Shown here: in pieces, positions 15,668 through 39,934 of the stretch | Position numbering within the stretch: position 1 is the stretch's first letter | How the letters are laid out: each line of letters opens with the position of its first letter | IMG/VR virus record: IMGVR_UViG_3300020034_000042 | Location: 1-39,934 of that record | Reading direction: 5' to 3' (one strand) | Origin: a virus | DNA length: 39,934 nt | Program-made: the position numbers and the translations under genes | The notes under the pieces: model-generated | The model's input: only the letters and a program-made list of their open reading frames with translations | Database searches by the model: none | What the model was told of the DNA's origin: nothing

Positions 15668-15714
15668 ATCATAGCGTGTCCACTGTTGACATTATGGGTT
15701 CTCAGTGATATGCG
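15668..15714. promoter_or_regulatory. Divergent promoters sharing a 15-bp operator
   Basis: The dyad TGTCCACTGTTGACA (15677-15691) is a member of the phage-wide operator family. On the plus strand its right half is the -35 TTGACA (15686-15691), with 17 bp to TATGCG (15709-15714) before the gene at 15728. On the minus strand TATGAT (complement of 15668-15673) could be the -10 of the capsid gene, with the dyad covering the spacer. One bound protein could control both directions. Confidence 0.65.
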
Positions 15715-34357: not shown

Positions 34358-34454
34358 TGACCTGCACTTAGACGGATAAGACAGGTGTTCAGTTAACGGA
34401 GGAATCACTAGGCCTCACGTAGGTAATACGGAACACCTGTCTTATCCGACTAGG
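34358..34454. ncRNA. Structured element B (97 nt)
   Basis: Arms CGGATAAGACAGGTGTTC (34373-34390) and exact complement (34431-34448), extended by TAG/CTA beyond an A-A mismatch, enclose a loop with AGTTAACGG, GAGG/CCTC and GCCTCACGT. It has the same 97-nt length and pairing register as element A at 16124. The TAG stop of the HTH gene (34450-34452) lies within it on the minus strand. A third copy of its outer stem at 34304-34317 allows an alternative fold. Confidence 0.7.
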
Positions 34455-34656
34455 GCCGCTTGTCGATCTTGTTGTGGAGGCTCTTGCGCACCGCTTCCAG
34501 CTCATCGCGGTCGAACCACACCCGGCCGTTCATGGGGTCGCGGTGCTGCGTGATCCGGCCCGCGATGGCCCACCTCTTGATGGTGCGGATCGTCACGCCT
34601 GTGATGGCGGCGGCGGTGCCTCGGTCCACTAGCTGCGACTTCTTGGGGGTATCCAT
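34450..34656 (-). CDS. MerR/excisionase-like HTH protein
   Basis: 68 aa, ATG at 34656. The sequence RGTAAAITGVTIRTIKRWAI, then GRVWFDRDELEAVRKSL, is the HTH_17 / MerR-like winged helix found in excisionases, BldC-like proteins and small phage regulators. It is divergent from the LuxR-type gene across a shared operator. With no integrase in the genome it is more likely a transcription or replication regulator than a recombination directionality factor. Confidence 0.75.
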   Translation of the reverse strand: MDTPKKSQLVDRGTAAAITGVTIRTIKRWAIAGRITQHRDPMNGRVWFDRDELEAVRKSLHNKIDKRP

Positions 34657-34675: not shown

Positions 34676-34713
34676 TGTCCACTGTTGACACTTCCGACCC
34701 GGGATGGCACGAT
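34676..34713 (+). promoter_or_regulatory. Class I operator promoter (leaderless)
   Basis: Dyad TGTCCACTGTTGACA (34676-34690) supplies the -35 TTGACA (34685-34690); 17 bp later lies CACGAT (34708-34713). The start codon of the LuxR-type gene is at 34720, exactly where transcription should begin, so its mRNA would have no leader. The dyad also lies 20 bp from the divergent HTH gene start. Confidence 0.7.
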
Positions 34714-34719
34714 CGAACC

Positions 34720-35010
34720 ATGAAGCTGACCCCGAGAGAACACGACACCCTTCGCCTGATGGCCGCCGGGGCATCCCGCCCCTACGCCGGGCGCCTGATG
34801 AACAGCAGCGCGAGCAGCGTTCAGCGCACGCTGTCCGACCTGTACCGCCGGACCAACACCCAGACCACCGTCGAGCTGATCTCCTTCCTGATCACGGTCG
34901 GAGTCCTGAAGCTGGACCTGCGCGACGACTTCCCGGACTGCGTTGTCGAGGGGGCCACCGACGGAACCTTTGACCCGTACTTCGGGCTGGCAGAGAACCG
35001 GACGCCGTGA
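34720..35010 (+). CDS. Small LuxR/GerE-type HTH regulator
   Basis: 96 aa, ATG at 34720 with no ribosome site, as expected for a leaderless mRNA. Residues 1-58 follow the LuxR-type HTH: LTPREHDTLRLMAAGASRPY, GRLMNSSASSVQRTLSDLYR and a TTVELISFL end. There is no receiver or ligand domain; the C-terminal 35 residues are acidic. It probably binds DNA as a dimer. Sitting behind a class I operator, it is a good candidate for the protein that reads the TGTC-N7-GACA family. Confidence 0.75.
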   Translation: MKLTPREHDTLRLMAAGASRPYAGRLMNSSASSVQRTLSDLYRRTNTQTTVELISFLITVGVLKLDLRDDFPDCVVEGATDGTFDPYFGLAENRTP

Positions 35011-37649: not shown

Positions 37650-39101
37650 ATGGCTTGTGGAACATGCAGGGAGCCGGGGCACACCAAGCGGACGTGCCCG
37701 CAGGAGACCGAATCCGCACCGATCTACACCGGGGACACGCCGGGTCCATGGTTCAACGCAGCGTTCCCCGGCATCTGTGAGAGGGGTGGAGAGGGGTTCG
37801 ACCCGGGCGAGGATGTCCGCGCAGATGGGAAGGGCGGGTATGAGTGCCGCGACTGCGTGACAGACGCTGAGGCTGATGCGCCTGAGCAGTCCGTACCGGT
37901 CATGACCCACGACTGTGACGCGTCCGGTCACCTGCGGTGCAGCAGTTATGCTCCCCCGTCCGCGTGGGAGAAGCCGACAGCGGCGAACGTGAAGCTTCCC
38001 GAGCCGACGGCCGCAGTGACGGCCGACGTGTTCGCCGACTTCTTCAAGGCCCCGGTGTCGGACAAGCCGGCAACCCTGCGCACGGACCGCAATGGGCACC
38101 GCCTGAAGGATCCCGTCCTCGGGGACTTCCGTCGGTACAAGAACGGCAACGTCAAGTCGGTCCGCCGGGTGACCACCTTCAACAAGGCGGTCGAGGACAC
38201 GTCGGGCCTGACCGACTGGCAGAAGGTCAACGTCCTGGTCGGCGCAGCTGCCCGGCCTGAGGTCGCGGCCGACGCTCACGGCAAGACGTGGGACACGCAC
38301 AAGGACGAGTTGAAGGGTCTCGTCAAGATCCTGGAGGAGGCTGCCGGCTCCAAGAAGGCTGCCGACACGGGCACCCTGATCCACAAGCTGTGCGAGCGCT
38401 GGGACAAGGGGGAAGTCACCCTCGACCAGGTGCCCCCGGCGTTCCGCCCGTTCGTGGTCCTGTACCAGGACGCCCTGAAGGCTGCCGGGCTGCGGGCCGT
38501 GACGGGCATGCAGGAGCTGACGACGTTCATCGAGGAATGGGGCGGCGTCTCCGGCTCGTTCGACAACGTGTACGAGCACGTTGCGACCGGCGCCTACTAC
38601 ATCGGCGACATCAAGACCGGCAAGTCGATGGACTACGGGTGGGATCCGATCGAGTGCCAGGAGGCGATCTACGCCCACGGGTACAACCGCTTCGGTACCT
38701 ACAACTGGGACGTCGGGGAGTGGGAGCCCCCGAAGCTGCGCGTGTCGCAGGAGTGGGGCATCGTGATCCACCTGCCCACCAAGGGTGACCACGTCGGGAC
38801 GTGCCGGGCGCTGGCCGCCGACCTTGAGCGGGGATGGGACTACGCGGCCGAATGCGGGTCTGTCCTTGCCCGCCGGTCCCTGCGCCCCAAACCCATCCCA
38901 TTCTCCTCCCTGGCGCCCGCACAGGCGCCTGCCGAGGCGGAACTGTGGGACTGGTCGGTGAAGTTCTCCGGCGTCGCCACGATCGCCGAGGCTGGCACCC
39001 TGTGGCAGGAAGCGAAGGATGCCGGGGTCGACCCGATGGAGCTGAACCGGTTGGTGCAGCTCGCACAGTCGGCACTCCGCAGCGCCGGCGTAACCGGGTA
39101 G
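37650..39101 (+). CDS. RecB/Cas4-like PD-(D/E)XK nuclease with zinc knuckle
   Basis: 483 aa, ATG at 37650 after AAGGGGAG. The N-terminus has CGTCREPGHTKRTCP, a CCHC-like knuckle, and a second Cys/His stretch near residues 65-95. The nuclease core shows DTGTLIHKLCERW (His), GSFDNVYEH (Asp), then YYIGDIKTGKS (D-x-K) and the RecB-type QEAIYAHGY. It is expected to degrade or trim DNA ends in recombination, with the SF2 helicase and the SSB-like protein as partners. It ends just before the operator at 39103. Confidence 0.8.
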   Translation: MACGTCREPGHTKRTCPQETESAPIYTGDTPGPWFNAAFPGICERGGEGFDPGEDVRADGKGGYECRDCVTDAEADAPEQSVPVMTHDCDASGHLRCSSYAPPSAWEKPTAANVKLPEPTAAVTADVFADFFKAPVSDKPATLRTDRNGHRLKDPVLGDFRRYKNGNVKSVRRVTTFNKAVEDTSGLTDWQKVNVLVGAAARPEVAADAHGKTWDTHKDELKGLVKILEEAAGSKKAADTGTLIHKLCERWDKGEVTLDQVPPAFRPFVVLYQDALKAAGLRAVTGMQELTTFIEEWGGVSGSFDNVYEHVATGAYYIGDIKTGKSMDYGWDPIECQEAIYAHGYNRFGTYNWDVGEWEPPKLRVSQEWGIVIHLPTKGDHVGTCRALAADLERGWDYAAECGSVLARRSLRPKPIPFSSLAPAQAPAEAELWDWSVKFSGVATIAEAGTLWQEAKDAGVDPMELNRLVQLAQSALRSAGVTG

Positions 39102-39102
39102 T

Positions 39103-39140
39103 TGTCTACTGTTGACACGGCTCGGCTGACGGCATAGAGT
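39103..39140 (+). promoter_or_regulatory. Strong class I operator promoter of the RNA unit
   Basis: TGTCTACTGTTGACA (39103-39117) supplies TTGACA at 39112-39117, then exactly 17 bp, then TAGAGT (39135-39140), the best actinobacterial -35/-10 pair in the window. The predicted start site is near 39147. No coding gene follows for about 630 bp. Confidence 0.8.
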
Positions 39141-39237
39141 AGGGATTGTTCAACGGAGGAGCGGTTCCCATCCATCGCTCGGGTAGCTTCCGCTCCTCCC
39201 CCAAGATGTCCCGGCCGTGTAGCTCTCGGTCGGGGGT

Positions 39238-39327
39238 TCCGCAGTAGCTCAATGGTAGAGCGCCAGCCGGTAAGGGTGAGTGGGGCGAAAGCCTCCGAGG
39301 CTGAGGGTTCGAATCCCTCTTGCGGAG
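39238..39327 (+). tRNA. tRNA-like domain 1, isotype undetermined
   Basis: Acceptor TCCGCAG pairs with TTGCGGA (39320-39326); the D arm is GCTCAATGGTAGAGC and the T arm is GAGGG-TTCGAAT-CCCTC. The length of 90 nt fits a class II tRNA, with a GGGGC-GAAA-GCCTC arm. The expected anticodon stem CCAGC has no GCTGG partner, and the 7-base loop CGGTAAG would lack U33 (anticodon GTA if taken literally). CCA is not encoded. It may be a degenerate tRNA or a tRNA-shaped RNA domain. Confidence 0.6.
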
Positions 39328-39399
39328 CAAGGGCCACGATGTAATCCAGCACCATCACGGGTTGCACACGTCCCTTTGTGGCGACTGCTTCAGTCGTGG

Positions 39400-39517
39400 C
39401 GCGTGTTGGCGGAGTGGCTTAACGCAATCAGGGAAACCTGATGGGAATGTGAACGGGATTGGTCCAGGTACCGGGCCCCTGACACTGCACCCCGTGGGTT
39501 CGAATCCCACACACGCA
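39400..39517 (+). tRNA. tRNA-like domain 2 with expanded anticodon region
   Basis: Acceptor GCGTGT (39401-39406) pairs with ACACGC (39511-39516); a Leu-type D arm GCGGAGTGGCTTAACGC and the T arm GTGGG-TTCGAAT-CCCAC are intact. The 118-nt length exceeds any normal tRNA by about 30 nt. The anticodon region has ATCAGG-GAAA-CCTGAT, and TCAGGG can also pair with CCCTGA at 39477-39482, leaving a 43-nt loop. No standard anticodon loop is present. Confidence 0.55.
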
Positions 39518-39696
39518 CAGATCTGCGACCCACCGTGAAGGGCAAACGGCTTCTGGCCAACACCCTGGATCGGGCGAGAGATCTGGTGAGGCTAGGCTCA
39601 ACTGGTTGGAAGAGCCCTTGCAGGGAAGTCCATCCCGAACCCAAACCAAACGGACACGGTACGGTCGGTAAGCAGAGTCTGGGCCGATCAAATCCG

Positions 39697-39738
39697 GGGG
39701 ACCGGCCGGGCGCAGAACCACCCAACCGGCCGGGCCCC
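39697..39738 (+). terminator. Terminal hairpin of the RNA unit
   Basis: GGGG (39697-39700) plus CCGGCCGG (39702-39709) pair with CCGGCCGG (39726-39733) plus CCCC (39735-39738), with one A-G mismatch. It lies 36 bp before the SSB-like start and would end the noncoding transcript. Confidence 0.65.
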
Positions 39739-39774
39739 ACCACCCAAGGTATTCACCGAGCAAAGGAATCAAGG

Positions 39775-39934
39775 ATGAGTCAGGACCCGTTCTCGCAGTT
39801 CCTCTCCGGCGGTCTCGTGTCGGCCAAGTTCCCCACCGTGGGCTACGTGGTCGAGGGCACCGTCACCGCAGCCGCCATGAAGCAGCAGTCCGAGTACGAG
39901 GGGGGCGCCCCCAAGTTCTGGTCCGACGGCTCCC
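39775..39934 (+). CDS. SSB-like protein (5' part; continues at position 1)
   Basis: ATG at 39775 with AAGGAATCAAGG upstream begins MSQDPFSQFLSGG. After 39807 the same codons repeat at positions 1 onward, so this and the entry at 1-495 are one gene of 528 bp on the circle. The real N-terminus can be seen only here. See the entry at 1-495 for function. Confidence 0.75.
   Translation, partial: MSQDPFSQFLSGGLVSAKFPTVGYVVEGTVTAAAMKQQSEYEGGAPKFWSDGS
39808..39934. repeat. Terminal direct repeat, right copy
   Basis: Identical to bases 1-127. It marks the point where the contig closes on itself. Confidence 0.95.

Follow-up and report, generated by a model that had tools for sequence, protein, structure and literature searches.

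The role of phage tRNAs has been debated for decades, mostly as codon supply or as the replacement of cleaved host tRNAs, and two large non-coding RNAs of phages, GOLLD and ROOL, occur near tRNA sequences. Phage tRNAs with changes in the anticodon loop have been described before (van den Berg et al. 2023, PMC10264068): they evade anticodon nucleases, and they resemble the RNAs described here in their altered anticodon arm and in their link to tRNA-targeting defences, although they keep a working anticodon and were proposed as replacements for cleaved host tRNAs. Likewise, a bacterial pseudo-tRNA is known from Bacillus cereus, tRNA-Other (PMC3399842), which is tRNA-shaped and reportedly not working in translation; unlike our domains it is bacterial, lies by a genomic island and does not belong to a phage, and nothing indicates a relation between the two. 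A literature search, with subscription papers and most preprints outside its scope, found no paper on tRNA cores of phages in which the anticodon arm is rebuilt and cannot decode.

The window, by which we mean the whole 39,934-nt stretch of DNA analysed, is a complete phage genome, because the same 127 bases stand at both of its ends (1-127 and 39808-39934) and the contig thus closes as a circle of 39,807 bp. The ends meet at the next gene after the tRNA-like locus; this gene starts with an ATG at 39776 and runs on at positions 10-495. Protein families identified terminase, portal, tape measure, primase-polymerase, helicase and exonuclease genes. The best relatives of the polymerase, with ca. 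27% identity, belong to phiC31-type phages of Streptomyces, which makes Streptomyces or a neighbour the probable host. Canonical tRNA genes are absent from the phage, which argues that codon supply is not the purpose of the tRNA-like domains. Directly downstream of the exonuclease gene (37650-39101), a gap without genes extends from 39102 to the ATG at 39776, in agreement with the ca. 630 bp without a gene that the original prediction had placed after a promoter. The gap contains, all on the plus strand and in this order, an operator with a promoter, two hairpins, two tRNA-like domains, a conserved 3' stretch and a closing hairpin.

Blastn comparison of this region with 50,697 phage records yielded no significant match. 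Searches for wider relatives by protein or DNA covered viral contigs and cellular genome contigs, and the only close relative found was one viral contig sharing the locus, IMGVR 3300043596_000015, hereafter L002.

The operator is an inverted repeat, TGTCTACTNNNGACA / TGTCTACTGTTGACA (39103-39117), that overlaps the -35 box of a sigma-70-like promoter, TTGACA-17-TAGAGT (39112-39140). The window contains seven sites of TGTCTACTNNNGACA (at 15677, 25539, 25865, 30103, 34676, 37261 and 39103), with 11 strand-wise matches against 1.4 expected, a level reached by none of 100 shuffles, so that one operator appears to be shared by several promoters in the manner of a repressor regulon. The promoter is the only sigma-70-like site within 38500-39934, and also the only TTGACN/TANNNT site in the whole window, although with 0.32 expected this count would say little by itself. 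In L002, the operator and both promoter hexamers are unchanged and 4 of the 17 spacer bases differ. The promoter, originally singled out as the best one of the window, is thus conserved; the phage operator predicted to switch the transcript is well supported as a sequence by its seven sites and its conservation, and switching is the function that such an arrangement would suggest. Together, these motifs provide good support for a predicted promoter-driven unit under a phage operator. The site at 34676 sits between divergent small HTH genes (34450-34656, minus strand, and 34720-35010, plus strand), one of which may be the repressor.

Two strong 5' hairpins, also anticipated, would open the transcript. 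The first (39155-39199) has a 10-bp stem, folds with a z of -3.74 and is identical in L002, and the second (39209-39235), located just before domain 1, folds with a z of -2.54 and has its counterpart in L002 in a hairpin at the same place with a different sequence.

tRNA-like domain 1 (39238-39327, 90 nt) has normal acceptor (7 bp), D (4 bp) and T (5 bp) arms, an abnormal anticodon arm and a long variable region, and scores 47.3 bits with the Rfam tRNA model (RF00005), for a cut-off of 29; it was also found by the core search described below. Blastn with this domain alone retrieved short tRNA-fragment matches only. The position of the anticodon arm (39264-39278) is taken by CAGCC-GGTAA-GGGTG, a stem with a G-G mismatch that ends in a five-base loop, GGUAA, and in which position 33 is not U; its L002 counterpart is a perfect stem, CACCC-GCTAA-GGGTG. 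The variable region contains a GAAA-capped helix (39282-39295). The ends of the domain show T1-A72 and G73; G73 and the long variable arm are features of serine tRNAs, and as such a lead only.

tRNA-like domain 2 (39400-39518, ca. 118 nt) has a 6-bp acceptor, GCGTGT/ACACGC, plus a C-A mismatch, a D arm of 3 bp, a T arm of 5 bp and a variable region of 51 nt, and its anticodon stem, ATCAGG-GAAA-CCTGAT (39427-39442), is capped by GAAA. The model RF00005 gave no match to domain 2, which was found only by a relaxed core search, and its fold alone is unremarkable (z -1.2); it is the weaker of the two tRNA-like calls. The core search asked for a 5-bp T arm with a TTCRANN loop, at least six of seven acceptor pairs, U8 and a D arm with GG. 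In the 40-kb window it retrieved exactly two places, domains 1 and 2, versus a mean of 0.02 cores in dinucleotide-shuffled windows, none of 100 of which contained two; the criteria were chosen after the domains had been found, and these figures are hence a check of strength and not an independent discovery. The original prediction of two domains with acceptor, D and T arms, no normal anticodon arm and a GAAA-loop helix in each was accurate, less firmly so for domain 2.

Neither domain contains a usable anticodon, defined by a 5-bp stem, a 7-nt loop and U33, and we conclude that they cannot decode because their anticodon loops are replaced by stable GNRA-like caps. They do not encode a CCA end either; actinobacteria can add CCA. 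ARAGORN calls domain 1 alone, as Tyr(GTA), and neither this program nor Rfam reported a tmRNA in the locus. That ARAGORN assigns anticodons to domain 1 could be taken as a sign of unusual decoding tRNAs, for instance ones whose changed anticodon loops allow frameshift suppression or the reading of rare codons, and the pattern searches presented below also retrieved, from other phages and from bacteria, genuine Ile(TAT) tRNAs that are class-II-like and have normal anticodon arms. However, the lack of U33, the five-base loop of domain 1, the GAAA tetraloop of domain 2 and the flip of the domain 1 isotype to Leu(AAG) in L002, upon a difference of two bases, make decoding highly improbable and support the earlier view that these are not two ordinary tRNA genes.

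Besides the operator, the promoter and the first hairpin, L002 retains domain 1, with 88 of its 90 bases identical and both changes inside the anticodon arm; few parts of the locus are as well conserved as this domain, while the linkers have diverged. The linker and the second tRNA-like domain, on the contrary, are replaced in L002 by unrelated sequence, where a shorter and poorer tRNA-like lies within the same end sequences, GTGGCGCGTGYTGG ... CACGCACAGATCT. It is a poor mimic of a tRNA, with a short D loop and a minimum free energy structure that is not a cloverleaf. This poor domain, the mismatch in the window arm that is perfect in L002 and the general loss of CCA would be expected of decaying tRNA genes, that is, former tRNAs acquired by the phage that lost their anticodon arms and any function. 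Nevertheless, decay does not explain why domain 1 should be conserved between diverged linkers, nor does it predict the covarying helices of the phiC31 group or the enrichment of tetraloop caps over shuffles, both presented below, and we consider it unlikely.

The original prediction went further and proposed a single, dedicated structured RNA of ca. 590 nt, comparable to GOLLD or ROOL. The continuous gap with its promoter, hairpins and closing hairpin agrees with this, as does the strong conservation of the 5' hairpin and of the 3' stretch. However, neither GOLLD nor ROOL matched in Rfam even at an E-value of 10, the whole transcript folds no better than its shuffles (z -1.17), the middle is replaced in L002 and the folds of the 3' stretch differ between the two phages, which leaves a single large RNA hardly more credible than decoding. 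The locus thus differs from GOLLD and ROOL in presenting modular tRNA cores instead of one fold. Because domain 2 was exchanged and the 3' stretch folds differently in L002, the unit is modular and not one fixed fold; as judged from this comparison, the predicted transcript carries exchangeable tRNA-shaped modules.

From domain 2 to the next gene, a conserved stretch without genes (39519-39741, ca. 220 nt) is ca. 93% identical to L002 and has no fold common to both phages except for its last hairpin; it is possibly a regulatory leader of the next gene. That closing hairpin (39697-39738), formed by paired CCGGCCGG repeats, is strong and folds in both phages; a hairpin had indeed been predicted at the end of the gap, and, having no U tract, it is only a putative terminator. 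The frame of the downstream gene stays open upstream across much of the 3' part of the gap. We rejected a coding function for the 3' stretch, given that the differences with L002 are not mainly synonymous and that the ATG at 39776 has a good ribosome site in front of it. Likewise, a resemblance to RNase P RNA, seen by eye in parts of domain 1 and of the 3' stretch, found no support in Rfam.

An RNA of the same kind exists in phiC31 (NC_001978.3, 31424-31511; L010:11425-11512), where the interval between gp13 and gp14 holds a tRNA core, missing from the annotation, whose anticodon region is abnormal. Blastn located the element at the same place in eight relatives (Lilbooboo, Euratis, Vash, Samora, Sebastisaurus, Heather, RemusLoopin and phiBT1; L129-L136), and it is annotated in only one of the nine phages, Lilbooboo, as tRNA-Gly. 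In their alignment (A2), which covers the acceptor, D, T and two anticodon-arm helices, 98.6% of the cells are paired and 15 are double-change cells, for 5.0 in shuffles and nearly none with slid partners. The outer pairs of the anticodon arm alternate CG/UA and CG/AU/GC, the inner stem alternates CG/GC, and the inner loops are GAAA, GCAA, GUAA or UUCG. This covariation of its helices is direct evidence that the non-decoding anticodon arm of the phiC31 group is under selection.

Like the window domains, the phiC31-group element has a tRNA core with a full acceptor, no usable anticodon and a GNRA/UUCG-capped helix; the type-I D arm, TAGCTCARYGG, and the T arm, GGTTCGAATCC, are further likenesses. 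It stands alone in the early region of a ca. 41-kb Streptomyces siphophage, with an elongated anticodon arm (outer stem, internal loop and capped inner stem) and a short variable loop, whereas in the window two domains lie in tandem behind an operator promoter of their own, the anticodon stem being short and capped and the variable arm long and capped. The likeness is therefore one of architecture only, as the locus differs and Blastn gave no homology outside the tRNA core. In phiC31-type elements, a 6-nt palindrome (CCCGGG, TCCGGA, CCTAGG or CCATGG) follows the outer anticodon stem (A2 columns 49-54; L169, L214, L117 and L083); it changes as a palindrome, and might serve for RNA dimers or as a DNA site. 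As a general dimerisation signal, palindromes were discarded, because those of at least 6 nt numbered 69 in the odd set defined below, versus 70.8 in shuffles, and domain 1 of L002 contains none.

The arm of phiBT1 has been exchanged for CCCCC-GACGTTCGA-GGGGG. The same phiBT1 anticodon arm, CCCCCGACGTTCGAGGGGG, appears in the last member of an array in phage AbbeyMikolon, on a different core, indicating that arms and cores recombine. This tandem tRNA-like array (41010-41567; L214:9524-10090) includes two members annotated only as 'tRNA-OTHER'. As in the window, the array of the Streptomyces phages AbbeyMikolon and Nesbitt gathers several tandem tRNA cores within 600 bp, and the anticodon arm of one member, CCCC-CGTAA-GGGG, precedes a TGA, as does that of domain 1; unlike in the window, the cores are mixed with a canonical tRNA-Asn, and the sequences are different.

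The distribution of such cores was evaluated with two DNA patterns, consisting of a D arm, 34-62 nt and a T arm. The first, which does not match the window itself, retrieved 116 viral contigs, and the second retrieved at least 119, together with 100 stretches, mostly archaeal, from 84,980 cellular genomes. Introns are expected in the tRNAs of archaea, and the archaeal matches were set aside as probable tRNA introns; several of the bacterial matches were class-II-like Ile(TAT) tRNAs with normal arms. Such tRNAs of the Ile(TAT) type, which combine a normal anticodon arm with a long class-II-like variable arm (AGCGCCAGATAAGCG), are common to bacteria and phages (L254, L258, L261, L282, L302, L304 and L316, and the phage loci L138 and L229).

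After removal of canonical anticodon arms and near-duplicates, 150 phage cores with long regions made up what we call the odd set, a sample chosen for these regions and not a census. A hairpin of at least 4 bp with a GNRA/UNCG cap is present in 25 of the 150 odd cores, compared to 6.7 in shuffles (maximum 14), and a GNRA/UNCG cap follows the D arm directly in 16 of 188, for 7.0 expected. CCA is encoded in 17/150 odd cores versus 141/288 canonical cores, and ARAGORN misses 86 of the 169 odd cores that existed before the removal of near-duplicates. A second recurrent phage tRNA-like has its anticodon arm replaced by a motif near CTCATGGTGAAGGACCAAAT (L033, L049, L089, L107, L111, L122, L237 and L239).

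Host RNase P and the 3' processing of tRNAs recognise the acceptor/T core. The strongest rival to a reading of the domains as tRNA mimics is that they are tRNA punctuation: they would only mark where RNase P/Z cuts the polycistronic transcript, so that the downstream ssDNA-binding-like gene obtains a separate 5' end, and their anticodon arm could vary because these enzymes do not need it. A conserved core with a variable anticodon arm fits this well, as do the position of the elements between genes of the same strand in the window, L002 and the phiC31 group and the conserved leader of ca. 220 nt before the next gene. Against it, the anticodon arm of the phiC31 group is itself kept by covariation and has specific tetraloops, domain 1 retains a variable-arm helix, two tandem cores seem one too many, and the unit has its own operator promoter. 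On balance, we find punctuation doubtful, though less so than decay.

We thus favour, at a probability of roughly 40%, that the domains are non-decoding tRNA mimics that would be excised by the host and would probably act on its tRNA-binding or tRNA-targeting factors. We favour it because both domains have a core without an anticodon; because domain 1 is kept in L002 where the linkers and domain 2 are replaced; because an RNA of the same kind covaries at one locus in phiC31 and eight relatives; and because of the tandem array of AbbeyMikolon and the enrichment of GNRA/UNCG caps in phage cores. By analogy with tRNA processing, RNase P and 3' processing would excise the domains, upon relief of repression, as small and stable RNAs. 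Less surely, the mimics may then target, in trans, host factors that recognise the core of a tRNA and not its anticodon, most likely as decoys or alternative substrates for tRNA-targeting defences directed to the acceptor end, such as toxSAS pyrophosphorylases and MenT-type nucleotidyltransferases. FaRel2 picks tRNAs by the acceptor stem (PMC11559606); MenT toxins reportedly extend tRNA acceptor ends, with MenT3 preferring tRNA-Ser (PMC10435456, PMC11541572); and phage tRNAs are known to evade tRNA-targeting defences (PMC10264068). The exchanged second module and the changing anticodon arm could then reflect changing host opponents. Nonetheless, a tRNA core could be put to several uses besides that of a decoy, the second domain of L002 is a poor mimic, and the acceptor end may be unused, since CCA is rarely encoded in the odd set and is absent from the window domains.

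More broadly, we give somewhat short of an even chance to the proposal that phages of actinobacteria, and apparently many others, encode uncharacterised non-decoding tRNA mimics, with rebuilt, tetraloop-capped arms, that would be expressed early under repressor control and act on host tRNA enzymes or defences; the window would then represent a tandem pair with an exchangeable second module. tRNA cores that are under selection and yet non-decoding need an explanation other than codon supply or tRNA replacement, and two laboratory systems, phiC31 with S. coelicolor and AbbeyMikolon with S. lividans, carry such RNAs. Annotation pipelines miss them or assign them a spurious isotype, and their recurrence in phiC31 and in many other phages, where they are mostly unannotated, points to an overlooked kind of phage RNA.
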